A stretch of DNA of 40,188 bases, from the NCBI GenBank assembly GCA_900315065.1, contig OMXQ01000012.1:1-40188 (forward strand). Reading direction: 5' to 3'. The notes beneath the pieces are model-generated. The model saw nothing but the letters and a program-made list of their open reading frames with translations, ran no database searches and was not told the DNA's origin. Made by a program: the position numbers and the translations under genes. Shown here one piece after another: positions 12,398 to 25,903 of this stretch. Each line of letters opens with the position of its first letter. The stretch's first letter is position 1. Source of the stretch: an uncultured Erysipelotrichaceae bacterium. Lineage in GTDB: Bacteria > Bacillota_I > Bacilli_A > Erysipelotrichales > Erysipelotrichaceae.

Positions 12398-15300
12398 TTA
12401 ACGGAAGTATGCAACGGCACCCTTGAAGAGGAATTCCTCAGTCTTCAGATCAGGAATATTCTGATACAGACCTTCACCGCTTCTTTCAGCGTGTCCCATC
12501 TTGCCGAGAATTCTGCCGTCAGCGGAAGTAATGCCTTCAATTGCTAGGTAGGAATTATTCGGATTGAAACGGATATTGCTTGTGACTTCGTCATTCAGAT
12601 CTACATACTGGGCAACGATCTGGCCGTTTTCAACCAGCTTCTTCAGAACTTCCGGCTCAGCGACGAATCTGCCTTCTCCATGTGAGATTGCAACATTATA
12701 TACTTCACCCGGTTTTGCAAACTGCAGCCAAGGCGAATGACTTGTCGCAATTCTTGTTCTTACCAGCATGGACTGATGTCTGCCAATAGAGTTGAAAGTC
12801 AATGTCGGGCAGTGTTCGTCGGTATCGATGATCTTTCCATACGGGACAAGGCCCAGCTTGATCAAAGCCTGGAAACCATTGCAGATACCAAGCATCAGAC
12901 CTTCTCTCTTATCCAGTAAATCAGCAACTGCTTCCTTAACCATAGGATTTCTGAAGAAGGCTGTAATGAACTTGCCGGATCCATCCGGTTCATCACCGCC
13001 GGAGAAGCCGCCCGGAATTGCAATGATCTGGGATCTGCGGATTGCTTCAGCAAACTTCTTTGCACTGTCTTCAATATCTTCTGCCGTCAGATTTCTGACC
13101 ACGAAGATTTCAGCTTCAGCACCTGCTTTTTCAAAAGCCTTTGCCGTATCCCATTCGCAATTGTTGCCCGGGAATACCGGAATCAATACTCTCGGCTTTT
13201 CAACGGTATAAGAAGCATGCATAACACTCTTCTTTTCACAGGTTACCGGATAAACTTCATCAGCCGGGAACTTTGTCAGATATGGATAAACAGGCTCAAG
13301 CTTTTCTTCATAAGCCTTCTGCAGATCAGCCATGGAAACTGTTTCACCTGCATAAGTAATTTCATATTCCCTGGTGATTTCACCGACAACCGGAAGATCC
13401 AGAGAATCATCAGATTCAATCAGGAAGGAACCATAATTCTTCGCAAAAAGATCAAGATCCGTATTGGTTACCTTGATACCCAGCTGGTTGCCAAGACCTG
13501 CCTTGAGCAGACCTTCGGCAATGCCGCCGCGGTCCAGTGCCCATACAGACTTTACCTTGCCTGCTTTGATCAATTCTTCCAGCTTGTCAAAGGAAGCCCG
13601 CAGATCATCCCACTTCGGAAGACCATTCTCGTCCTTCTCATAAGTCAGATAATAAACCTTGTCGCCAGCCTGCTTCCATTCATCGGAAATGACTCTGTCT
13701 GTATTGGTTACGGAAACAGCGAAGGAAATCAAAGTCGGAGGCACATCGATATTTTCGAAGGTACCGGACATGGAATCCTTGCCGCCGATGGCAGCGACAC
13801 CCATTTCCAGCTGTGCCTTCAAAGCACCTAACAAAGCAGAGAAAGGCAGACCCCATCTCTTCGGATCCTTGTTGACATGACCGAAATATTCCTGGAAGGA
13901 CATCCATGCATGATGATAGGAACCGCCGGCCGCAACAATCTTGGCCAGGGATGTGACGACTGCGTTCATTGCACCCTTATATGGAGAAACGGAAGAAAGA
14001 TACGGATCAAAACCCCAGCTCATCAGAGATACTGTCTTTGTATCCCCATGCAGAACCGGAATCTTGGCTGCCATGGACTGGGCAGGCGTCAGCTGCATTC
14101 TGCCGCCGAACGGCATCACAACTGTACCGGCCCCGATCGTGGAGTCAAACCTTTCGGCCAGACCCTTCTGGGAACAGATGTTCAGATCAGAAGCCAGGTC
14201 CTTCATCTTTGCAGAGAAGGATCTTGTATCTGCCTTCTTTTCTTCAGCCTTTTCAGTATCAACTTCAACAGTAGTAAACTTCTTTGCACCATTGGAATTC
14301 AGGAACTCTCTGGAAATATCAACAATCGCAGTGCCGTCCAGTTCCATGACCATTCTCGGCTCTTCAGTCACGACTGCAACTACAGTAGCCTGCAGGTTTT
14401 CACTGTCTGCCAGAGCCAGGAACTTATCAGCGTCTTCCTTAGCTGTAACGACTGCCATTCTTTCCTGAGACTCGGAAATAGCCAGTTCGGTACCATCCAG
14501 ACCTTCATACTTCTTCGGTACTTTATTCAGATCGATCTTCAGACCGTCTGCCAATTCACCAATAGCAACCGATACGCCGCCGGCCCCGAAGTCATTGCAT
14601 CTTTTGATCAGCTTGGCAGCTTCACCATTGCGGAACAATCTCTGCAGCTTTCTTTCTTCCGGCGCATTGCCCTTCTGAACTTCTGCACCATCCTTGGCCA
14701 GAGAATCAACATTATGGGACTTGGAAGAACCCGTTGCGCCACCGCAACCGTCTCTGCCGGTCTTGCCGCCGAGCAGAATGACAACATCGCCTGCCTGCGG
14801 TCTTTGGCGAATGACATTTTCACTTGGCGCAGCTGCGATGACAGCACCGACTTCCATACGCTTTGCAACGTAGCCTGGATGATAAACTTCATGCACAAGA
14901 CCAGTAGCTAAGCCGATCTGGTTGCCGTAAGAAGAATAGCCCTGAGCAGCTGTGGTTACGATTTTTCTCTGCGGAAGCTTGCCCCTGAGGGTATCTTCTA
15001 CCGGTGTCAGAGGATCTGCAGCCCCGGTAATACGCATTGCCTGATATACATAGGAACGGCCGGACAGCGGATCACGGATAGCACCGCCAAGACACGTAGC
15101 AGCACCGCCGAAAGGTTCAATTTCCGTCGGATGGTTATGAGTTTCGTTCTTGAACATCAATAACCAGTCTTCATCTTTGCCGTTGACATCCACTGTGATT
15201 TTAACGGAACATGCATTGATTTCTTCGGACTGATCGAGATCATTCAGCTTGCCGGCAGCCTTGAGTGCCTTGGCACCAATGGTAGCCAGATCCATCAAAG

Positions 15301-16108
15301 TGATCTTCTTGTCAGGTCTGTTGACATACAGCTTCTTTCTCAATTCGAGATAATCCTTGTATGTTTCTTTGACATACTCAGGCTGGATATCGACATCATC
15401 AATGATGGTATTGAAGGTTGTATGGCGGCAATGATCAGACCAGTATGTATCAATGACACGGACTTCGGTGATTCTCGGGTCACGCTTTTCTGTATTCTTG
15501 AAATAATTCTGCAGGAATTCAATATCCGCCAGGTCCATGGCAAGGCCCTTATCATCGATAAACTTCTGCAGACCAGCTTCGTCCAGTTCGTTGAAACCAG
15601 TCAGGACTTCCGGCAATGCCGGCTTTTCATAAGCAGTCTTGATTGTTGCAGGCTTGGCCAGCACTGCTTCTCTTGCTTCAACCGGATTGATCAGAGTTTC
15701 CTTGATCTTTTCTTTCTCTTCTGCAGTAAAGCTGCCCTTGATATAGTAAAGCTTGGCTGTACGGACATCAGGCCTTGTCTTCATAGTGGAAAGCTGGATA
15801 CACTGGGCACAGGAATCAGCTCTTTGATCAAACTGACCAGGCAGATATTCTACGGCAAGCACCCATTCATCCTCAGCCGGAGCCGGTGCTTCTTCCAGAT
15901 ACAGATCATCGACCGGAGGTTCGGAGAAAATCGTATACAAAGAAGCCTTGAAATCAGCTTCATCGATATTTTCAACATCATATCTGTTCAGAATACGGAC
16001 AGAAACAATATCATCCGTCCGAAGTGCTGTCTTCAGATCATTCCTGACGCCGTTTGCTTCTACGGCAAAAGGCTTCTTCTTTTCTACAAAACAACGATAA
16101 ACGCTCAT
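12398..16108 (-). CDS. purL: Phosphoribosylformylglycinamidine synthase, long form
   Basis: Converts FGAR, glutamine and ATP to FGAM. At 1236 residues it is the fused form in which synthetase and glutaminase are one chain, so no purQ or purS is needed. The synthetase part has KNETHNHPTEIEPFGGAATCLGG, the GGATGSSKS segment and a second half-repeat (GGKDSMSGTF). The last ~260 residues are a class I glutaminase domain: PGGFSGGDEPDG, the nucleophile in GICNGFQALIK, and the SHGEGRF histidine/glutamate. A GGGGAG ribosome site precedes the start. It lies 12 bases after purD and is the last gene of the purine operon. Confidence 0.97.
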   Translation of the reverse strand: MSVYRCFVEKKKPFAVEANGVRNDLKTALRTDDIVSVRILNRYDVENIDEADFKASLYTIFSEPPVDDLYLEEAPAPAEDEWVLAVEYLPGQFDQRADSCAQCIQLSTMKTRPDVRTAKLYYIKGSFTAEEKEKIKETLINPVEAREAVLAKPATIKTAYEKPALPEVLTGFNELDEAGLQKFIDDKGLAMDLADIEFLQNYFKNTEKRDPRITEVRVIDTYWSDHCRHTTFNTIIDDVDIQPEYVKETYKDYLELRKKLYVNRPDKKITLMDLATIGAKALKAAGKLNDLDQSEEINACSVKITVDVNGKDEDWLLMFKNETHNHPTEIEPFGGAATCLGGAIRDPLSGRSYVYQAMRITGAADPLTPVEDTLRGKLPQRKIVTTAAQGYSSYGNQIGLATGLVHEVYHPGYVAKRMEVGAVIAAAPSENVIRQRPQAGDVVILLGGKTGRDGCGGATGSSKSHNVDSLAKDGAEVQKGNAPEERKLQRLFRNGEAAKLIKRCNDFGAGGVSVAIGELADGLKIDLNKVPKKYEGLDGTELAISESQERMAVVTAKEDADKFLALADSENLQATVVAVVTEEPRMVMELDGTAIVDISREFLNSNGAKKFTTVEVDTEKAEEKKADTRSFSAKMKDLASDLNICSQKGLAERFDSTIGAGTVVMPFGGRMQLTPAQSMAAKIPVLHGDTKTVSLMSWGFDPYLSSVSPYKGAMNAVVTSLAKIVAAGGSYHHAWMSFQEYFGHVNKDPKRWGLPFSALLGALKAQLEMGVAAIGGKDSMSGTFENIDVPPTLISFAVSVTNTDRVISDEWKQAGDKVYYLTYEKDENGLPKWDDLRASFDKLEELIKAGKVKSVWALDRGGIAEGLLKAGLGNQLGIKVTNTDLDLFAKNYGSFLIESDDSLDLPVVGEITREYEITYAGETVSMADLQKAYEEKLEPVYPYLTKFPADEVYPVTCEKKSVMHASYTVEKPRVLIPVFPGNNCEWDTAKAFEKAGAEAEIFVVRNLTAEDIEDSAKKFAEAIRRSQIIAIPGGFSGGDEPDGSGKFITAFFRNPMVKEAVADLLDKREGLMLGICNGFQALIKLGLVPYGKIIDTDEHCPTLTFNSIGRHQSMLVRTRIATSHSPWLQFAKPGEVYNVAISHGEGRFVAEPEVLKKLVENGQIVAQYVDLNDEVTSNIRFNPNNSYLAIEGITSADGRILGKMGHAERSGEGLYQNIPDLKTEEFLFKGAVAYFR

Positions 16109-16120
16109 TCTCTACTCCCC

Positions 16121-17383
16121 TTATTTCTGACCGATGTCATGACGATAATGGACATCCTTGAAGCCGATTTCCTCAACTGCAGCATAAGCACGAACAATTG
16201 CTTCCTTCTGGGTCGGAGCCTTGGCTGTAATGCCGATGACTCTGCCGCCGTTGGTATAGTACTTTCCGTTTTCTTTCTTCGTGCCGGCGTGATAAACGAA
16301 TACGCCTTCATGCTGGCCCTTTTCATCAAGACCATGGATTTCATAACCCTTCTGATACTTCACCGGATAGCCGCCGGAAGCTTCGACAACACAAGCGCAG
16401 GCATCCGTGGACCATTCAATATCCATATCTGCCAGGGTTTCATCATGACATGCACGCATAATATCAAACAGATCACTCTTCAATAAAGGCAGAACAACCT
16501 GGGTTTCCGGATCCCCGAAACGACAATTGTATTCAACAACCTTAGGGCCGTCTTTTGTCAACATCAGGCCGAAATAGAGACAGCCTTTGAACGGACGGCC
16601 TTCCGCATTCATTGCCTTCAAGGTAGGCAGGAAGATTTCCTGCATGCATCTTTCGGCAATTTCAGGCGTGTAATACGGAGACGGGGCAATGGTGCCCATG
16701 CCGCCGGTATTGAGACCCTGGTCGTAATCATCTGCCCGCTTATGGTCCATGGAGGAAACCATCGGCTTGATAACTTTGGAGTCTGTAAAGGCAAGTACGG
16801 ATACTTCCTTGCCTGTCATGAATTCTTCGACGACGATCTTATTGCCGGCCTTGCCGAACATCCTGTCGATCATGAGTTCTCTGACTGCAGCCTTGACATC
16901 TTCCAATGTCTCAGCGATCAATACGCCCTTGCCTAAAGCCAGACCGTCTGCTTTCAGAACAACCGGGAACTGATTCTTTTCTTTGATATAAGCCATGGCT
17001 TCTTCCGGATTGTCGAAGATTTCATAGGCAGCTGTCGGGATGCCGTATTTCTTCATCAGGTTCTTGGAGAAAGCCTTGGAAGCTTCAATGATTGCCGCAT
17101 TGGCATGCGGACCGAAACATGGAATTCCAACTGCTTCCATCTGATCAACCATGCCGAGCGCTAACGGATCATCCGGCGTGACAACACAGAAGTCAGCCCC
17201 ATTGTCCTTAGCGAACTTCACCATGTTATCCACATCGGTTGCCTTGATATCTACGCACTCAGCTTCAGCGGAAATACCGCCGTTGCCTGGTGCACACCAG
17301 ATCTTTTCAATTGTCTTGTTTTCCAGAAGCTTATGAATGACAGCGTGTTCTCTGCCGCCGCCGCCGACAACTAATACTTTCAT
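16121..17383 (-). CDS. purD: Phosphoribosylamine--glycine ligase
   Basis: GAR synthetase, an ATP-grasp enzyme joining phosphoribosylamine and glycine. At 420 residues it is full length. It begins with MKVLVVGGGGREHA, has the ATP-grasp strands (FPVVLKADGLALGKGV) and NTGGMGTIAPSPYYT, and the metal-binding VEYNCRFGDPETQ. The start has only a weak purine-rich ribosome site. The gap to the formyltransferase gene upstream is 21 bases. Seventh gene of the operon. Confidence 0.97.
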   Translation of the reverse strand: MKVLVVGGGGREHAVIHKLLENKTIEKIWCAPGNGGISAEAECVDIKATDVDNMVKFAKDNGADFCVVTPDDPLALGMVDQMEAVGIPCFGPHANAAIIEASKAFSKNLMKKYGIPTAAYEIFDNPEEAMAYIKEKNQFPVVLKADGLALGKGVLIAETLEDVKAAVRELMIDRMFGKAGNKIVVEEFMTGKEVSVLAFTDSKVIKPMVSSMDHKRADDYDQGLNTGGMGTIAPSPYYTPEIAERCMQEIFLPTLKAMNAEGRPFKGCLYFGLMLTKDGPKVVEYNCRFGDPETQVVLPLLKSDLFDIMRACHDETLADMDIEWSTDACACVVEASGGYPVKYQKGYEIHGLDEKGQHEGVFVYHAGTKKENGKYYTNGGRVIGITAKAPTQKEAIVRAYAAVEEIGFKDVHYRHDIGQK

Positions 17384-17404
17384 CTTTTCTTACTCTCTTT
17401 TCTA

Positions 17405-18583
17405 TCAATGATGGAACAGACGGACGCCGTTGAATACCATCGTCATGTTGTACTTGTCACAGGTTTCAATGACATTGTCATCACGGATGGATCCGCCCGG
17501 TTCAGCGATATAGGCAACGCCGGACTTATGGGCACGTTCAATATTGTCACCAAACGGGAAGAAGGCATCAGACCCAAGGGACACGCCTGTATTCTTTGCT
17601 AACCACGCTTTCTTTTCTTCTACGGTCAATGGTTCCGGCTTTTCGGTGAAGAAGTTCTCCCATGTGCCGTCTCTCAATACATCTTCCCATTCATCGGAAA
17701 TATAAACGTCAATCGTATTATCACGGTCTGCTCTGCGGATGCCTGGCTTGAAAGGAAGAGCAAGAACCTTCGGATTCTGTCTCATCCACCAGTTGTCAGC
17801 CTTATTGCCGGCAAGACGCACGCAATGAACACGGCTCTGCTGACCGGCACCGACACCGATTGCCTGGCCGTCCTTGACATAGCAGACGGAATTGGACTGG
17901 GTATACTTCAAGGTGATCAGGGCGATCTTCAGATCACGCACTGCATTTTCAGGCAGATCATGATTCTTTGTAACTATGTTGGTAAAGAGGGAATCGTCAA
18001 TCTTTACGTTGTTTCTGCCCTGTTCGAAGGTAATGCCGAAAACCTGCTTGTGTTCGACTGGATTCGGAACATAATCAGGATCGATCTGGACAACATTGTA
18101 ATTGCCCTTTTTCTTCTGCTTCAGGATTTCCAGAGCTTCTTCTGTATAGCCTGGTGCGATGACACCATCGGAAACTTCCTTCTTGATGAGTCTGGCAGTA
18201 TCTGCATCACAAACATCAGACAAGGCAGCCCAGTCGCCGTAAGAGGACATTCTGTCTGCGCCTCTGGCTCTTGCATAAGCACAGGCAAGCGGGGAAAGTT
18301 CGCCCGGATCCACAAAATAGATCTGTCTGTCGACATTGCTTAACGGTAAGCCCACAGCAGCACCAGCCGGAGAAACATGCTTGAAGGAAGCAGCACTCGG
18401 CAAGCCGGTTGCTTCTTTCAGTTCTTTGACTAACTGCCAGGAATTCAAAGCATCCAGGAAGTTGATATAACCAGGTCTTCCGTTCAGCACAGTTACCGGC
18501 AGTTCACTGCCGTCATCCATGTAGATGCGGGAAGGTTTCTGATTCGGATTGCAGCCGTATTTCAATGCGAGTTCGTTTGCCAT
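17405..18583 (-). CDS. purH: AICAR formyltransferase, stand-alone
   Basis: Transfers a formyl group from 10-formyl-THF to AICAR, the penultimate step to IMP. At 392 residues it corresponds to the formyltransferase part of PurH only. The catalytic Lys-His pair is in SFKHVSPAGAA, and the substrate regions include TQSNSVCYVKDGQAIGVGAGQQSR and SLGSDAFFPFGDNI. The MGS-like IMP cyclohydrolase domain that normally forms the N-terminus of PurH is absent. Its job is taken by the gene immediately upstream, whose TAA stop overlaps this ATG by one base. A GAGGAG ribosome site is present. Confidence 0.93.
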   Translation of the reverse strand: MANELALKYGCNPNQKPSRIYMDDGSELPVTVLNGRPGYINFLDALNSWQLVKELKEATGLPSAASFKHVSPAGAAVGLPLSNVDRQIYFVDPGELSPLACAYARARGADRMSSYGDWAALSDVCDADTARLIKKEVSDGVIAPGYTEEALEILKQKKKGNYNVVQIDPDYVPNPVEHKQVFGITFEQGRNNVKIDDSLFTNIVTKNHDLPENAVRDLKIALITLKYTQSNSVCYVKDGQAIGVGAGQQSRVHCVRLAGNKADNWWMRQNPKVLALPFKPGIRRADRDNTIDVYISDEWEDVLRDGTWENFFTEKPEPLTVEEKKAWLAKNTGVSLGSDAFFPFGDNIERAHKSGVAYIAEPGGSIRDDNVIETCDKYNMTMVFNGVRLFHH

Positions 18584-19287
18584 TACTTGTTCTCCTCATT
18601 TTTGTTGTAGATTCTTGTATCGTAGTCGCCGGAAACGATGTCAATCTGACGGGTAAACAGGGAAACCTTGTTGTCAGGATTCAGCGACTGCCAGATTGCA
18701 TCAGACCATTCGTCAAACGGAACCTTTGCCATTTCAAACAGGATCGGTTCTCCTTCAAAGGAAGGCAATGGACTGCCGTTATCCTGGTAGGTGGAAATGA
18801 AACGCATCGTACCTGGCAATACATTTGTATATTCATAGAAATAACGAAGGGTGCTCTCTTCATTATTACGATCAGACTTGAGCATGGACATCTGCACATC
18901 TGTACCTTTGATGACAGCAGAAATTCTAGGTGTCCAGTTCGGTCCGTCCGGTTCAAAAGTCCTTGTCCGAAGAGCTTCTTCAAAGCTCTTTCCTGCTTTG
19001 AGGAAATCATAAATGGTATCGGTCTGGTCACCATTGGTAATGATTGTCTTTTCGCCAAAGACTCTGACTGGTGCATAGATAATCAGACTCGGATCAGACA
19101 ATTTGGAAGGATCAAATGCCTGGGTGCGGATCCCTTCTCCATCTTCCACAAAAACTCTGTTTCTGGAATTTTCAGACCTGCCCATGATCCAGTAGGCAGC
19201 CCGCATTTTCTTACCGCACGGTGTTCTGCCGATGACGATGCCGCGGCCCGGATAAGTATGACTTTCAAGATATTCGTTCAGATTCAT
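18583..19287 (-). CDS. purO: IMP cyclohydrolase, PurO type
   Basis: Closes FAICAR to IMP, the last step of the pathway. The chosen start (19287, MNLNEYLESHTYPGRGI) has AGGAGG upstream and gives 234 residues; the reading frame is open further upstream, but that part overlaps purN and lacks family features. It belongs to the archaeal-like IMP cyclohydrolase family (PF07826): an N-terminal YPGRGIVIGRTPCGKKMRAAYWIMGRS-like core, RVFVEDG, and NWTPRISAVI. The start overlaps purN by 23 bases and the stop overlaps the formyltransferase start. It replaces the cyclohydrolase half of bifunctional PurH. Confidence 0.9.
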   Translation of the reverse strand: MNLNEYLESHTYPGRGIVIGRTPCGKKMRAAYWIMGRSENSRNRVFVEDGEGIRTQAFDPSKLSDPSLIIYAPVRVFGEKTIITNGDQTDTIYDFLKAGKSFEEALRTRTFEPDGPNWTPRISAVIKGTDVQMSMLKSDRNNEESTLRYFYEYTNVLPGTMRFISTYQDNGSPLPSFEGEPILFEMAKVPFDEWSDAIWQSLNPDNKVSLFTRQIDIVSGDYDTRIYNKNEENK

Positions 19288-19897
19288 GCCTTTTTTCCTC
19301 CTGAATTTGATGAGCGACCATTTCGGCAGCCTTCGGAAGCAGAATCCATTCGGCCTGTTCCATGACTCTGCGCTGCAGAACTTCCGGTGTATCACCGTCT
19401 TCTACTTCTACTGCCTTCTGGAGAATGATCTTTCCGCCATCCGGAATTTCATTGACGAAATGAACGGTAGCACCGGTAACTTTGACGCCTTTTGCCAAAG
19501 CTGCTTCATGTACTTTCAATCCATAGAAACCCTTCCCGCAGAAAGAAGGAATCAGAGAAGGGTGAATATTGATAATTCTGTCTTTGTAAGCAGAAATGAC
19601 ACCCTGACCGAGAATGGAAAGATAACCAGCCAGAATGACCATTTCAATGCCGTTGTCACGCAGCGTTTTTACGATAGCCGCATCAAATGCGTCCTGATCT
19701 GCATAGTCTTTTCTTTTAATAACAGCTGTCTTCTTGTTGTACTTTGCGGCTCTTTGCAAAGCATATGCTTTGTCATTGGACGCAATAACAAGATCAATTT
19801 CACCAGATGGGATATTGCCTGCCTTTTCCTGGTCCATCAGTGCCTGCAGATTAGTGCCGCCGCCGGAAACCATGACGGCAATTTTTGTTTTTGCCAT
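19265..19897 (-). CDS. purN: Phosphoribosylglycinamide formyltransferase
   Basis: Formylates GAR with 10-formyl-THF. It has 210 residues from the ATG at 19897, which overlaps the purM stop as TGATG; a GTG one codon earlier is also possible. It starts [20 protein letters not shown] with the phosphate-binding GGGTN, has the catalytic INIHPSLIPSF segment (Asn and His) and the IPDGGK loop carrying the catalytic Asp. The tail from about residue 190 overlaps the purO start. Close overlap on both sides indicates translational coupling. Confidence 0.96.
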   Translation of the reverse strand: MAKTKIAVMVSGGGTNLQALMDQEKAGNIPSGEIDLVIASNDKAYALQRAAKYNKKTAVIKRKDYADQDAFDAAIVKTLRDNGIEMVILAGYLSILGQGVISAYKDRIINIHPSLIPSFCGKGFYGLKVHEAALAKGVKVTGATVHFVNEIPDGGKIILQKAVEVEDGDTPEVLQRRVMEQAEWILLPKAAEMVAHQIQEEKRHESERIS

Positions 19898-20937
19898 CAC
19901 CTGATGACGACGCTGTGGTCGCCCTCCGTCATATGACCGATGACACCTGCCTTGATGCCGTCTGCCTCTAAAGAAGCCAGGGCAGCATCCACATCTTCCG
20001 GTGCTACATACACAGCCATGCCGATGCCCATGTTGAAGGTATTGAACATATCATGATCGGAAATGGCACCGCTCTTCTGAATCAGCTTGAAGATCGGAAG
20101 AACTTCCCATGTCCCTGTTTCAATTTCTGCATTCAGATCATCACCGAAAGCACGCGGGAGGTTTTCATAGAAACCGCCGCCGGTGACATGAGCAATGGAC
20201 TTTACATTAACCTTTTCCAGTAAGTTGAGAACCGGCTTTACATAGAGCTTTGTCGGTGTCAGTAAGGTTTCACCAAGCGTCTTGCCAAGTTCATAGGAAT
20301 AGCCGTTGAGAACTTCCTTATTATCGATATTGAAGATCTTTCTGACTAAAGAGAAACCGTTGGAATGAACACCTGAGGAGGCAAGACCGATAATGACATC
20401 GCCTGCTTTGACATTCTTCGGATTAAGAATCTTCTTCTCATCCACAAGCCCGACGGTAAAACCGGCAACATCATAGTCATCTTCTGCCATCATGCCTGGA
20501 TGCTCAGCTGTCTCGCCGCCAACCAGGGCGCAGCCTGATTCAACGCAGCCATCAGCGACTCCTTTGACAATAGCCGCAATCTTCTCCGGCTTGTTTTTGC
20601 CGCAGGCAATATAGTCAAGGAAGAAAAGAGGCTTGGCACCTGCACAGACAACATCATTGACACACATGGCAACGCAATCGATGCCGATCGTATCATGCTT
20701 GTCCATCAACATGGCAATCTTCAGCTTGGTGCCGACACCGTCTGTACCGGAAATGAAGACCGGTTTTTCATAATTGGAAAGATCCGGGGCAAACAGACCG
20801 CCGAAACCGCCGATGCCGCCGATGACACCCGGGATAGCTGTTCTCTTTACATCGTCCTTGATCAATCTGACTGATTCGTAGCCGGCGGTAACATCCACAC
20901 CAGCTGCCTTGTAGGCATCACTATAACTCTTGGCCAT
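19897..20937 (-). CDS. purM: Phosphoribosylformylglycinamidine cyclo-ligase
   Basis: AIR synthetase, which closes the imidazole ring from FGAM. The start at 20937 ([16 protein letters not shown]) gives 346 residues, the usual length. The frame is open 45 codons upstream, but that part lies inside purF and is unlike the family. It has [15 protein letters not shown], the [16 protein letters not shown] segment, [11 protein letters not shown] and the late [13 protein letters not shown]. The purF tail overlaps its start by 17 bases. AAGGAG lies rather far upstream (about 15 bases), so coupling to purF translation is likely. Confidence 0.96.
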
Positions 20938-22393
20938 CGTCTGTTCTTTTCGCTCCTTTATATTCTTCGTTTTCACCGATCTTTGTCTCAAATCTGTCTT
21001 TGGATGAGTCTTCCGGGACCGGGGCCGGGTAGTGTTCTGTAAAGCAGCCGACACAGAAGTCACAATCTGCACCAGCAGCCATCTTTTTCACGCCTTCAAC
21101 GCTCAGATAGCCTAAAGTATCCGCACCAATGGTCCGGCAGATTTCTTCCTGTGACATCTGGCAGGCAATAAGGTGTTCCTTGGAATCAATATCCGTACCG
21201 TAGTAACAAGGAGAGATGAAAGGCGGTGCGGAAACACGAACATGAACTTCCGTTGCGCCTGCTTCTCTCAACAACTTGACAATCCGGGCACTGGTTGTGC
21301 CTCTGACAATGGAATCATCCACCATGACAACTCTCTTGCCGCGGATGACGCTTGGAATGACATTCAGCTTCATGCGGACGGAATTTTCTCTTTGTCCCTG
21401 GGTAGGCTGGATAAAGGTTCTTGCGATATATCTGTTCTTGACAAAGCCCATGCCGTAAGGAATGCCGCTTTCTTCTGCATATCCCATGGCTGCATCAAGC
21501 CCGGAGTCAGGTACGCCGATGACAACATCCGCATCGACTGCGTGTTCTCTGGCCAGGATTTTACCTGCATTTCTTCTTGCCTCATGCACAGACATACCCA
21601 TGATCATAGAATCAGATCTTGCAAAGTAGACATATTCAAAGACGCACATATGAGAACGTCCCTTGCAATGGGTACGGATGGAACGGACACCGCTCTTGTC
21701 AACAACGACAATTTCACCAGCATCCAGATCTCTGATATAAACTGCGCCTAAGGCATCCAATGCACAGGTTTCAGAAGCGAATACAATCTGACCCTCCGGC
21801 ATCTTGCCCATGACCAATGGTCTGAAGCCGGTCGCATCACGCACAGCGATCAGCTTTTCCGGAGACATGATGACTAAGGAATAAGCACCTTCCAATCTGT
21901 CCATGGCTCTGTCTACGGCAGCTTCAATCGAAGAAGCTGTCAGTCTTTCCCGGATGATCATATAGGAAATGATTTCGGAATCGTTGGTGGTATGGAAGAT
22001 GGCACCGGAAAATTCCAGCTGTCTTCTTAACTCTGACGCATTGGTCAGGTTGCCGTTATGAGCGACGGCCAGCTGGCCTTTGATATGACGGACAACTAAC
22101 GGCTGGGCATTGGTTCTGTTGACAGTACCGAAAGTGGAATATCTGGTATGACCGATTGCCATCTGGCCTTTTCCCAGTTTTTCCAATTCCTGCTTGGTGA
22201 AAACATCACGGATCAGGCCGACATCCTTGTGGCAGGTAATCACGCCTCTGTCATTGACGGCAATCCCGCAGGATTCCTGGCCTCTATGTTGAAGGGCAAA
22301 TAATCCGTAATAGGCGGAAGCGGCAACATCTCCCTTCATCTCACGGTCGTAAATACCGAAGATGCCGCATTCTTCATGAATCTGATCGTTCAT
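20921..22393 (-). CDS. purF: Amidophosphoribosyltransferase
   Basis: Commits PRPP to purine synthesis, making phosphoribosylamine with glutamine. It has 490 residues. The N-terminal MNDQIHEE is a short propeptide before the catalytic Cys9 (ECGIFGIYD), as in the processed, iron-sulfur-containing Bacillus type. Cysteines in the IACQMSQ and CDFCVGCF strings match the positions that hold the 4Fe-4S cluster in that type. The PRPP loop [14 protein letters not shown] is intact. It overlaps purE by one base (TAATG) and purM by 17. An oxygen-sensitive cluster would tie purine synthesis to anaerobic growth (inference). Confidence 0.97.
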
Positions 22394-22890
22394 TAGAGCT
22401 CCCTGACTTTTTCCTGAATCATGGCGTCTTTCTTCAAAACGCCTTCGGTCTGTTTTCTTCTGTCTTCGGCTAATTTTTCAGCCAGAGCTTCATCGCTGCC
22501 AGCCAGAATTTCAGCTGCCAGATAAGCCGCATTCTTACTGCCGTTAATGGCAACTGTCGCAACCGGAATACCGGAAGGCATCATCACGGTAGCTAACAAA
22601 GCATCCGTACCATCCAGAACTGCAGAGGACAGCGGTACACCGATCACCGGCAATGTTGTATGGGCTGCCAGAACCCCTGCCAGAGCAGCTGCCATGCCGG
22701 CGCCGGCAATGATGACACCGAACCCGTTTTCTTTTGCGTGTTCCGCATAATCAGCAGCTTCCGCCGGTGTACGATGGGCAGAATAAACATGCACCTCATA
22801 CGGAATCCCGAATTGTTTCAAGACTGAAACTGCCTTTGCCATGACAGGAAAATCGCTGTCAGAGCCCATGATAATACCTGCTTTTTTCAT
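22393..22890 (-). CDS. purE: N5-carboxyaminoimidazole ribonucleotide mutase
   Basis: 165 residues, class I PurE. It has the family opening (IIMGSDSDFPVM), the catalytic histidine region VYSAHRTP, and the GAGMAAALAGV and GVPLSSAVLDGTDALL loops. It rearranges N5-CAIR to CAIR if a PurK is present elsewhere; no purK, purC or purB lies in this window. It is the first gene of the operon and follows a leader with an intrinsic terminator, so it marks the control point for the whole cluster. The ribosome site AAGGAAG is about 10 bases upstream. Confidence 0.96.
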   Translation of the reverse strand: MKKAGIIMGSDSDFPVMAKAVSVLKQFGIPYEVHVYSAHRTPAEAADYAEHAKENGFGVIIAGAGMAAALAGVLAAHTTLPVIGVPLSSAVLDGTDALLATVMMPSGIPVATVAINGSKNAAYLAAEILAGSDEALAEKLAEDRRKQTEGVLKKDAMIQEKVREL

Positions 22891-22919
22891 TTTTCTCTCT
22901 CTTCCTTTGTTGATATAAA

Positions 22920-22954
22920 CAAAAAACTCCCCGACGTTTTCCGTCTTAAGGAGT
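22920..22954 (-). terminator. Leader terminator (attenuator) before purE
   Basis: On the minus strand, ACTCC (complement of 22950-22954) pairs with GGAGT (complement of 22926-22930), and GACG/CGTC pairs inside with a GAAAA loop, then a run of six T (22921-22926). It ends 30 bases before the purE start codon and upstream of its ribosome site, so it cannot be the end of another gene and must act as a conditional terminator. Confidence 0.8.
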
Positions 22955-23124
22955 CATAAAATAAACTGCATGAAAAAGTATGCCCTTGAATCCAATAAGG
23001 GTAACTGTTAAGAAATCACTTTTCTTTGACTGGAGAGTCATAACCCAAGACGCCATAGCTCCATCCTTCCGCCCGACCGGACAATAGTTACCAGAAATCC
23101 GAAAGAAATATGATACCTTGAAAC
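22955..23124 (-). promoter_or_regulatory. Structured 5' leader of the purine operon, candidate riboswitch
   Basis: About 170 nt between the predicted transcription start (near 23124) and the attenuator. A 7-bp long-range stem GGTAACT/AGTTACC (complements of 23086-23092 and 23000-23006) encloses about 80 nt that contain a TGGAG/CTCCA stem, a small GACT-CTCC-AGTC alternative hairpin and AAGAAA/TTTCTT. The GGATGGAG segment is also complementary to the 5' arm of the terminator (GACTCC), so it could form a competing antiterminator. I find none of the signature strings I know for purine, PRPP/ykkC, ZTP, THF, guanidine or T-box leaders. Confidence 0.6.
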
Positions 23125-23130
23125 ACGAAT

Positions 23131-23159
23131 ATAGTATTAAAAAACATAGGAAATGTAAA
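23131..23159 (-). promoter_or_regulatory. Promoter of the purine operon
   Basis: -35 TTTACA (complement of 23154-23159), 17-base spacer, -10 TACTAT (complement of 23131-23136), giving a start near 23124. No PurR-box pair is evident around it. The A/T-rich stretch from 23160 to 23280 shows no gene. Confidence 0.7.
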
Positions 23160-23314: not shown

Positions 23315-25903
23315 TCAAAGACTAAGTGAAAGAAGGCCAAGACCGATGCCGAGAATACACATGGCAATCACGCCGCTGTTCCGCCAGAAGATCTTCTTCC
23401 CGTCCTCTTCCGGCATCTGCTCTGTTTCCAATGCAGGCACATACTTCCGTCTGTTTACCCCGAAAAGACAGGCGCCTGCCGTCCATAGTGCAAACATTAC
23501 GCCGAGATAGACCAGCATCGGCCATAACGTGGAAAGATCATCCTGCATCAGATTTCCATTCATCGATTTTTCAAGTAACATCGGTACAATCGAGCCCAGG
23601 ATATTAATAATCATATGGAGAATCACCGTATAGCGGATTCGGCCGGTCCGTATATAAATGAAGGCAAACATGCACCCTAAGAAGAAAGCATAGCTCATCT
23701 GGGAGAAGTTCCCGTGGGTAACTGCAAAGGCAAGACCCGAGAAAAGAATTGCCCACTTTGCGCCGTAGACATGAAGCCTGTCTACTAACAACTTCCGGAA
23801 AACGAACTCTTCAAGGATCGGTGCCAATATCACCGCAAAGACCAGAATGGCCCATATATTCCCCTGGGAAAGCAGCTGCTGGACAGGATTGACTTTCTGT
23901 ACCGGCACAAACCGGGACAGAATCAAAGACGAAACGATATTGGCTGTATACATCAGGAAGAAACAAACCGCAAAAGCTTTTGCCCAATCCAAAAGGGAAA
24001 GATTCTTTTCCGGAATCTTCACCTTCGGTACTTTCTTCAATAGCAGATACATGAGAGGTAGTGCACAGGCATATAAAGAAAGATCCGTCATCAGGAATGT
24101 CAGCCACTGACTGTTCAGTATTTCCGGCAGAACTGCAGCAGCAATCGTCTGCAATCCCTGTGCAATGACATTGAAAACAACAACTGCCCAGGCAATTCTG
24201 GAAATATTCTTCTTTGTCTGTTTCAGATCTCCCTGATAATCTCCCTCATGAACGACCGGCTTGCCTCCATATGGGGAAAGCGTGCCTGCACAAAGTCCCT
24301 GGAAGAACAAACCAGCCGCAAGATTGATCAGCCCGCATAACAAAGCACCCCGCAGAATCTGATCCTGCATATAGAAATAAGCCATGATGATAATATCCGG
24401 TACCAGCCCGAAGTAGATGAACAGGATTTCAACTGCCTGTCTGATCTGCAGAGTCAGAGAAGCTAAGGAATTATCCAGGAACATCATGACGCTGCTTGCG
24501 AAAGTATCCATCGTGGCAACTAAGACCATTCCTCCCAAAGCAGAAAACGGATTGACCTGCAGAATCAAAGCAGAAACAAGGAAGGCAGGAAGACTATCCA
24601 GAACACAGACAACAAGCCCGCCCAGTGATATCCAGAACAACTTCTCAACTTCGGAAATCGGAATCATCCGGAAGAAATGATTCTTCGTATCATCAATGAT
24701 CGGATTGCCGGCGGAGCGGAAGAAGGCAAACACGCACAGAACCAGGACAACAGGCAGGATATTATGCATGTCAAAAACGAAGACTTCACCAAAGGACACC
24801 AGAACAGCCGCAAGGAAATACGCAACCAGGGTTTTCGTCAGGAAACCATACTTTGCAAAACGCTTGCGGTTATATAAAGTCTTCCAGAAAAAAGCCTGTG
24901 CTCCCTGTCCTTTCAGACCATCTGTTTCAACCTTGGACCAGTCTTTCTTCTTTGTAGATATGGAAACATTTTTATTGTCTTTGACAGCCTGCAGTTTTTC
25001 CGCTGTCTTTTCCGCAGCCGCGGCAGCTTCTTCATAGAAATCAACTTTCATCGAATCCATGATCTTCAATAACACAATAAGACCGGCAATACTCAGAAGC
25101 AGAAAGACAAGTGAAAAAACAAAATTCCCGGAAAAAGCGCAGCCGCAGATTCCCTTTAACCAGCCCAATACCGGCACCCACCGCAGCCAGGAAGCCGAAA
25201 GAATATCTTCCAATGCAGCGAATGGCGCTTTTCCAGACAAACGAGCAGAAAGACCTGTATATAAAATCAGCAGAACCAGAAGACTGTAACAAGAAACATT
25301 GAGAATCTTCTTCCACTTGTGATCCTGCTTGATCAGCAGATACCAATAGGTCTGCAGAAAGCGTCCGTATATAGTCAATAAGACCCAGGCACAGGCACTC
25401 AGAATCACTACCAGCGGATGAATGCCTGTATCCGCAATGAGCCCCGGCATATAGAAACCGGCATAAATTCCTGCTAACAGGAACAGGCCCACCTGCATCA
25501 TCAATCTGAATAAAAGCACCCGCTGGGGTTTCATTGGTGAGGTAAACAGAAGAACACTGTCGGCCGGCTGAAAGAACCTGGCCCCGTCTTCTTCTGCCCG
25601 GACAGTCTGATAAACAAGCGTCCCGATTGTCAATACACAGGCAATGGTTTCCGCTGCCTGTGCAGGTGAAGAGAAAGTGTTTTTAAATGTATCCTCAATT
25701 GACGAAAAAGCTTCATCGGCCGCCTGGGTTTCCTGTACAGACGGTTCCTTGTCTGCTGTCTGGTCGGAAAACATGCCTGCCCCGTAGCCAATTCCAAAGC
25801 CGCCGATGCCTGCGGCGATCAGAATCAATACAACCCAGGTTCTGCACAGTTTGCGGATCTGATTGATAAGAGTATGGAAAGCATAATAGAAATATGTTTT
25901 CAT
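23315..25903 (-). CDS. ABC exporter permease fused to a CPBP (CAAX-type) protease
   Basis: An 862-residue integral membrane protein. Residues 1-560 look like a large ABC exporter permease: first segment at about 22-42, several more membrane segments, and an Ala/Lys-rich cytoplasmic stretch at about 290-330. Residues about 570-800 form a CPBP intramembrane metalloprotease domain with motif 1 EEFVFR (Glu698, Glu699, Arg703), motif 2 histidine His730 in FAVTHGN, and a third motif HMIIN (His763, Asn767). A further segment ends the protein. The start overlaps the ATPase stop by ATGA. The fusion suggests that a substrate, probably a peptide or lipoprotein, is cleaved and exported by the same machine, or that the domain gives self-immunity; both are inference. 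Confidence 0.85.
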   Translation of the reverse strand: MKTYFYYAFHTLINQIRKLCRTWVVLILIAAGIGGFGIGYGAGMFSDQTADKEPSVQETQAADEAFSSIEDTFKNTFSSPAQAAETIACVLTIGTLVYQTVRAEEDGARFFQPADSVLLFTSPMKPQRVLLFRLMMQVGLFLLAGIYAGFYMPGLIADTGIHPLVVILSACAWVLLTIYGRFLQTYWYLLIKQDHKWKKILNVSCYSLLVLLILYTGLSARLSGKAPFAALEDILSASWLRWVPVLGWLKGICGCAFSGNFVFSLVFLLLSIAGLIVLLKIMDSMKVDFYEEAAAAAEKTAEKLQAVKDNKNVSISTKKKDWSKVETDGLKGQGAQAFFWKTLYNRKRFAKYGFLTKTLVAYFLAAVLVSFGEVFVFDMHNILPVVLVLCVFAFFRSAGNPIIDDTKNHFFRMIPISEVEKLFWISLGGLVVCVLDSLPAFLVSALILQVNPFSALGGMVLVATMDTFASSVMMFLDNSLASLTLQIRQAVEILFIYFGLVPDIIIMAYFYMQDQILRGALLCGLINLAAGLFFQGLCAGTLSPYGGKPVVHEGDYQGDLKQTKKNISRIAWAVVVFNVIAQGLQTIAAAVLPEILNSQWLTFLMTDLSLYACALPLMYLLLKKVPKVKIPEKNLSLLDWAKAFAVCFFLMYTANIVSSLILSRFVPVQKVNPVQQLLSQGNIWAILVFAVILAPILEEFVFRKLLVDRLHVYGAKWAILFSGLAFAVTHGNFSQMSYAFFLGCMFAFIYIRTGRIRYTVILHMIINILGSIVPMLLEKSMNGNLMQDDLSTLWPMLVYLGVMFALWTAGACLFGVNRRKYVPALETEQMPEEDGKKIFWRNSGVIAMCILGIGLGLLSLSL

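Follow-up and report, generated by a model that had tools for sequence, protein, structure and literature searches.

The de novo purine operons of Gram-positive bacteria are usually described as being controlled by PurR and by purine riboswitches. The question raised here is how such an operon is controlled in an uncultured member of the Erysipelotrichaceae, from which we analyzed a stretch of 40,188 nucleotides (the window). The first-pass annotation of this DNA had described an eight-gene purine operon, and profile matches confirmed it, with the order purE-F-M-N-O-like-H-D-L (Table 1). In the genome to which the window belongs, no match was obtained for the N-terminal domain of PurR, and the covariance model RF01750 detected no ZTP riboswitch. 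A single purine riboswitch (RF00167) was present, away from the purine operon. Thus, the leader preceding purE is the only purine-linked control element that we found at the operon.

Three features of the surroundings were recorded. The sole purine riboswitch found in the genome (L204) sits near the gene for a 455-aa product, which we take to be a purine permease. The purH function of the operon is split in an unusual manner, a formyltransferase-only PurH lying beside a PurO-like protein (18583-19395 and 17405-18583); the latter resembles the archaeal IMP cyclohydrolase PurO (E = 3.4e-14, under the NCBIfam cut-off). The gene upstream of the leader (23315-25903) specifies a product of 862 aa, which contains a CPBP intramembrane protease domain and is weakly similar to an ABC-permease/CPBP fusion.

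A conserved leader with an attenuator precedes purE

The promoter-like site recognized in the first-pass annotation matched 9 of 12 positions, for a chance expectation of 1.7 sites per kb. Elements resembling its -35 and -10 boxes were also found ahead of related leaders, and transcription would start near position 23124 of the minus strand. The intrinsic terminator described in the same annotation was likewise found before the purE ribosome site, as a hairpin (22955-22925, minus strand) followed by a T tail. It was overlooked by a simple scanner, and its energy (-14.1 kcal/mol) comes from a separate computation.

Table 1. Features of the purE leader and of the operon in the window.
Feature	Position	Strand	Details
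Promoter-like site, TTTACA-17-TACTAT	23131..23159	minus	-35 at 23159-23154, -10 at 23136-23131
Conserved core (R1): GGTAAC, hairpin GUCC-GGUC-GGGC, GGAAGGATGGAGCTATGGC...GTTATGACTCTCCAG	23018..23101	minus	R1 matches
Possible closing stem P1	23030..23094	minus	CUGG 23094-23091 with CCAG 23033-23030; GUUUGG/CCRRAC in relatives
P2 hairpin GUCC/GGGC, 4-nt loop	23071..23082	minus	3 of 5 pairs changed on both sides, 13 distinct sequences
P3, GGAGcUAUGGC / GUUAUGaCUCU, holding the leader start codon	23034..23062	minus	100% paired
Shine-Dalgarno AAGGA of the leader ORF	23064..23068	minus	7 nt upstream of ATG
Leader ORF, 36 codons, MASWVMTLQSKKSDFLTVTLIGFKGILFHAVYFMTP*	22946..23056	minus	Stop TAA 22948-22946 in the terminator 5' arm
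T-run TTTTT inside the leader ORF	22973..22977	minus	Possible RNA polymerase pause element
Intrinsic terminator, GACTCCTTAAGACGGAAAACGTCGGGGAGTT + TTTTGTTT	22917..22955	minus	-14.1 kcal/mol
purE, first gene of the operon	22393..22890	minus	TIGR01162, E = 1.4e-58
purF, purM, purN, PurO-like, purH (formyltransferase only), purD, purL	12398..22393	minus	Profile matches

The absence of known leader signatures, previously noted by inspection, was borne out by an Infernal search: Rfam covariance models gave no match to the window leader at the gathering thresholds and no credible family at E ≤ 10. This holds for the ZMP/ZTP riboswitch (RF01750), the Purine riboswitch (RF00167), the PRPP/guanidine (ykkC), THF and T-box families, and all remaining Rfam families.

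A DNA search with the leader in 60 genomes of the genus identified, in addition to the genome of the window, 12 relatives in which a conserved core is located 150-180 nt ahead of purE. A covariance model of this core (R1) detected it in 15 of 70 genus genomes (E ≤ 6.1e-17) and, of 272 family genomes, in no others. When one genome per GTDB species was scanned for an exact pattern, 12 loci were returned, each with a title naming Erysipelotrichaceae or Solobacterium. Mean identity between R1 loci was 0.79 in an 80-nt window of the core, 0.74 in purE, and 0.50 in the distal part of the open reading frame (ORF) described below.

Comparison of these related leaders, as the first-pass annotation had suggested, revealed covariation in hairpin P2 of the conserved core but not in the pairings that the annotation itself had put forward. 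The window does contain the 7-bp stem GGTAACT/AGTTACC, but in 0 of 14 relatives was the conserved GGTA segment followed downstream by its reverse complement. The bases of TGGAG/CTCCA are conserved but invariant, and hence bring zero covariation support. Complementarity between the Shine-Dalgarno region (GGATGGAG) and the terminator arm amounts to 4 Watson-Crick base pairs in the window and 2-3 in relatives. The antiterminator helices built on the first and third of these pairings are specific to the window and were rejected. The whole leader folded no better than shuffled sequences (z = -0.24).

Together, these results support the conclusion that the leader is an uncharacterized, conserved cis-regulatory element that places an attenuator before the purine operon. 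That part of the first-pass annotation stands, although the structure proposed with it does not; the annotation had staked this reading on the lack of an Rfam match and on conservation of the leader, and both were found.

A short ORF ends at the terminator in the window and in its relatives

The leader contains a 36-codon ORF (MASWVMTLQSKK...FMTP*), absent from the first-pass annotation, with no stop codon before the one that lies in the terminator hairpin. The AAGGA Shine-Dalgarno sequence is kept in all R1 relatives. The ORF was present at 15 of the 15 R1 loci, which had been gathered without reference to it, with a length of 33-44 codons in the relatives and a stop codon located -9 to +15 nt from the start of the terminator. 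Frame +2 is likewise open to the terminator at 8 of the 15 loci. Openness of the frame is therefore weak evidence on its own, and the placement of the stop codon carries the weight.

We then defined the layout by an ATG with a ribosome site, an ORF of at least 12 codons, and a stop codon at -15 to +40 nt from the start of the last terminator. The sample consisted of DNA upstream from purE in genus genomes without R1 and in a sample of the family, and the null expectation was obtained from dinucleotide-preserving shuffles of the 180 nt upstream of the terminator. The layout was found in 36 of 56 leaders of the genus (1.5 expected) and in 28 of 55 leaders from other genera of the family (1.2 expected), counts that are not independent events since the sequences share ancestry. 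Thus, further members of the genus keep the arrangement of ORF and terminator without the R1 core. As an internal control, four family leaders carry the ZMP/ZTP riboswitch (RF01750) ahead of purE, and none of the four contained such an ORF. Among the leaders that failed, several have an ORF that runs through the terminator or a GTG start codon, and some leaders of the genus have no such ORF.

In the other genera, the ORF often begins with ATGGTCTTAAGAAGA (MVLRR) and may stand in tandem after a purine riboswitch. Upstream of purE in a set of these leaders (L115-L122, L127, L144, L153-L169), GGAGGTCTTACTTATGGTCTTAAGAAGA is common at the leader start. By eye, the start codon sometimes lies in a small hairpin whose arms vary by group (UCUU/AAGA, ACGA/UCGU, AAGU/ACUU). 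At nearly all of 20 loci from a sister family in the order, purE follows another coding gene, mostly read by us as fhs, and lacks a leader of this kind. The feature is therefore not order-wide at purE.

The leader peptide drifts whereas a T-run is favored

In 18 independent close pairs, substitutions at codon positions 1, 2, and 3 numbered 56, 50, and 60, indicating that the peptide is generally not under selection and making a functional small protein unlikely. The frame is thus kept and the peptide is not, the first ~10 codons in the R1 group being the exception.

This exception bears on nascent-peptide arrest, in which the conserved first ten residues (MASxVMTLQT) would stall the ribosome on a metabolite early in the ORF and leave the terminator free to form. 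The motif V-[VM]-T-L-[QR]-T is conserved, one locus (L106) encoding VVTLRT with different codons, and MVLRR or MVFRS is kept in other genera. However, nucleotides and residues are conserved to the same degree (8, 8, and 13 extra states at the three codon positions), so that a constraint acting on the RNA explains the N-terminal conservation equally well. Most leaders of the genus have other N-termini, and the C-terminal part, the usual site of arrest motifs, is not conserved. We therefore regard arrest as quite unlikely.

A run of at least five T residues lies inside the ORF in 76% of 41 genus leaders, compared to 19 ± 6% after synonymous resampling and 24 ± 6% after codon shuffling, standard deviations that understate the uncertainty since the sequences share ancestry. 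The excess over synonymous resampling indicates that the T-run is favored at the DNA level. The NusG protein encoded by the window's genome carries RNTPG, which we take to be the pro-pausing N81/T82 site of Bacillus subtilis NusG. The B. subtilis protein pauses the polymerase at TTNTTT (PMC12288461). A pause within the leader ORF at the T-run may be envisaged on these grounds. Purine tracts were considered as pause elements sensing purine NTPs, and the difference was unconvincing (runs of 7.2 versus 6.5-6.7 in resampled ORFs).

A ribosome-coupled attenuator is proposed for the purine operon

We propose, with a probability of roughly 0.7 and on the basis of comparative sequence analysis, that the purE leader controls a purine operon by transcription attenuation coupled to the ribosome, in the manner of pyrBI/pyrL. 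The short leader ORF would be transcribed first and is predicted to be translated. A ribosome close behind RNA polymerase at the end of the ORF would cover the terminator 5' arm with its stop codon, and the purine genes would be switched on; leader translation would in this way lead to antitermination. If the ribosome started late, lagged, or stalled, the hairpin would form and transcription would end. The T-run would probably pause RNA polymerase in a NusG-type manner, letting the ribosome catch up. In this proposal, the act of translation matters and the peptide does not, which would explain why the peptide drifts while the frame and the position of the stop codon are kept. The input may be a purine shortage slowing the polymerase, the dependence of polymerase speed on purine level being the natural guess, or a signal acting at the start of the leader.

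A stop codon placed at the base of a terminator, or within its 5' arm, lets the terminating ribosome block the hairpin, and the pyrBI operon of Escherichia coli works on this principle. In pyrBI, the sequence of the leader peptide is not known to act as the sensor. The purE leader shares with that operon a nucleotide-biosynthesis context and a leader ORF that runs into an intrinsic terminator, where a close ribosome prevents termination (PMC5021804; PMC4824070), and ribosome and polymerase must stay tightly coupled along pyrL for the terminator to be prevented (PMC5021804). In E. coli, termination fell from ~90% to <10% when a stop codon located 28 bp upstream of a terminator was brought to 5 bp from it (PMC4824070). 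Two traits of this type were found in the leaders analyzed here, namely an ORF that has a ribosome site and reaches into an intrinsic terminator or ends next to it, and a frame that is conserved while the peptide sequence is not. The purE leader differs from pyrBI in preceding a purine rather than a pyrimidine operon, in belonging to a Gram-positive family, in having a highly conserved 5' core, and in the position of the stop codon, which in most leaders is at the 5' side of the terminator and in pyrBI beyond it.

Several points argue against the ribosome-coupled attenuator. Conservation of the 5' core exceeds what a plain pyrBI-type leader needs, and some leaders of the genus have no ORF or an ORF that runs through the terminator. 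The RNA polymerase of B. subtilis is thought to outrun ribosomes, so that coupling is less expected in this phylum.

The presence of a leader ORF upstream from a terminator could also point to classical amino-acid attenuation of the trp or his type, which would combine Gly, Gln, or Asp regulatory codons with a competing antiterminator. We consider this highly improbable. The three codons were not enriched (7.4, 2.6, and 2.7%, compared to 8.1, 2.9, and 6.1% in the ten genes of the window taken as the reference for codon usage) and formed no runs, and the antiterminator complementarity proposed in the first-pass annotation is not conserved. Furthermore, the stop codon and the terminator are more than 20 bp apart in amino-acid attenuators (PMC4824070), whereas the ORFs described here stop at the terminator.

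Two other systems offer partial likeness. A predicted upstream ORF followed by a terminator precedes the one-carbon gene fthC in Streptococcus (PMC11109978), a candidate that differs in gene, genus, and sequence. In B. subtilis tlrB (yxjB), a short leader peptide is present and a NusG-dependent pause gives time for leader translation during attenuation (PMC6851288; PMC12288461), but the gene confers resistance and responds to a ribosome-stalling antibiotic. We found no report of a purE leader attenuator of this kind in a search of the openly accessible literature, and an Erysipelotrichaceae purine operon controlled by a pyrBI-like attenuator is apparently unreported. If kept throughout this family of gut and rumen bacteria, a leader-ORF attenuator would bring a translation-coupled layer to purine control and offer a natural test of ribosome-polymerase proximity in the Firmicutes, in which the extent of coupling is disputed. 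Direct predictions follow from the layout for mutants of the start codon, the stop codon, and the T-run.

The conserved core may gate translation of the leader ORF

The core holds the Shine-Dalgarno sequence and the start codon and in the R1 group probably gates or sets translation of the leader; it may be an aptamer or a protein site gating initiation, or an RNA adjusted so that initiation is slow. The first-pass annotation had considered a riboswitch or a protein-bound attenuator. The best evidence instead favors translation of the leader ORF as the switch, although a ligand or a protein could gate the start of that ORF.

Specifically, P1, P2, and P3 could form a purine-pathway aptamer, binding of the ligand hiding the start codon, preventing translation, and letting the terminator form. 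The core was found solely before purE in the genomes searched and surpasses purE itself in conservation (0.79 versus 0.74), and the ZTP riboswitch occupies the same place before some purE genes of the genus. A three-way junction formed by the helices is compatible with 95% of the alignment cells, with two-sided changes at three pairs of P2 and one pair of P1 (95% of cells paired for P1). Sliding the helix partners reduced pairing to 37-53%, and 4 to 11 of 500 shuffles reached the junction values (pair-type count excepted), figures obtained with an alignment fitted to the P1/P2/P3 structure and thus biased in its favor. Against this reading, only 13 distinct sequences were available, and 9 of the 10 pairs of P3 are invariant, so that no covariation test is possible for this helix. 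Free consensus folding by RNAalifold lost P1 and paired CTCC with GGAG instead, for which reason P1 is tentative. Single cores folded no better than shuffles (z of about -1.5 to +0.9). Finally, other members of the genus keep the layout without the core, so that the basic switch does not require an aptamer. A purine-pathway aptamer gating the ORF is therefore unlikely. We also deem unlikely a new riboswitch class with an aptamer containing the start of the leader ORF, in which the ligand would block leader translation and the absent ribosome would let the terminator fold; if true, a riboswitch would control transcription of a de novo purine operon via translation of a leader peptide.

A short segment with strong primary-sequence conservation is also what an RNA-binding protein of the PyrR, TRAP, or ribosomal-protein kind could recognize in a protein-bound attenuator. 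This alternative is very doubtful: no candidate protein was identified, the N-terminal domain of PurR is absent from the window's own genome, and PurR is a DNA-binding repressor in any case.

Other leaders occur ahead of purE in the family

In relatives, the ZMP/ZTP (RF01750) and Purine (RF00167) riboswitches are found before purE at the position that the leader described here has in the window. They differ from it in that neither model matched the window leader, and ZTP leaders lack the ORF whereas purine riboswitches are sometimes in tandem with such ORFs. In four leaders (L124, L125, L128, and L131), an aptamer resembling the purine riboswitch is preceded by a short ORF that ends at a terminator, the two attenuators thus standing in the reverse order. 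RF00167 was confirmed in L124 and L131.

A second, different, short conserved leader was detected in the genus about 20-140 nt before purE (L076, L080, L089, L085, L090, and L098). It had no gathering-level match in Rfam, and three of its representatives examined at relaxed thresholds gave no sensible match. It consists of a CCGG-type hairpin followed by CUGAACAACUGAWCGCCGACC and a GGUCGG terminator arm. This leader faintly resembles the 3' half of the ZTP aptamer and is possibly an unclassified riboswitch.
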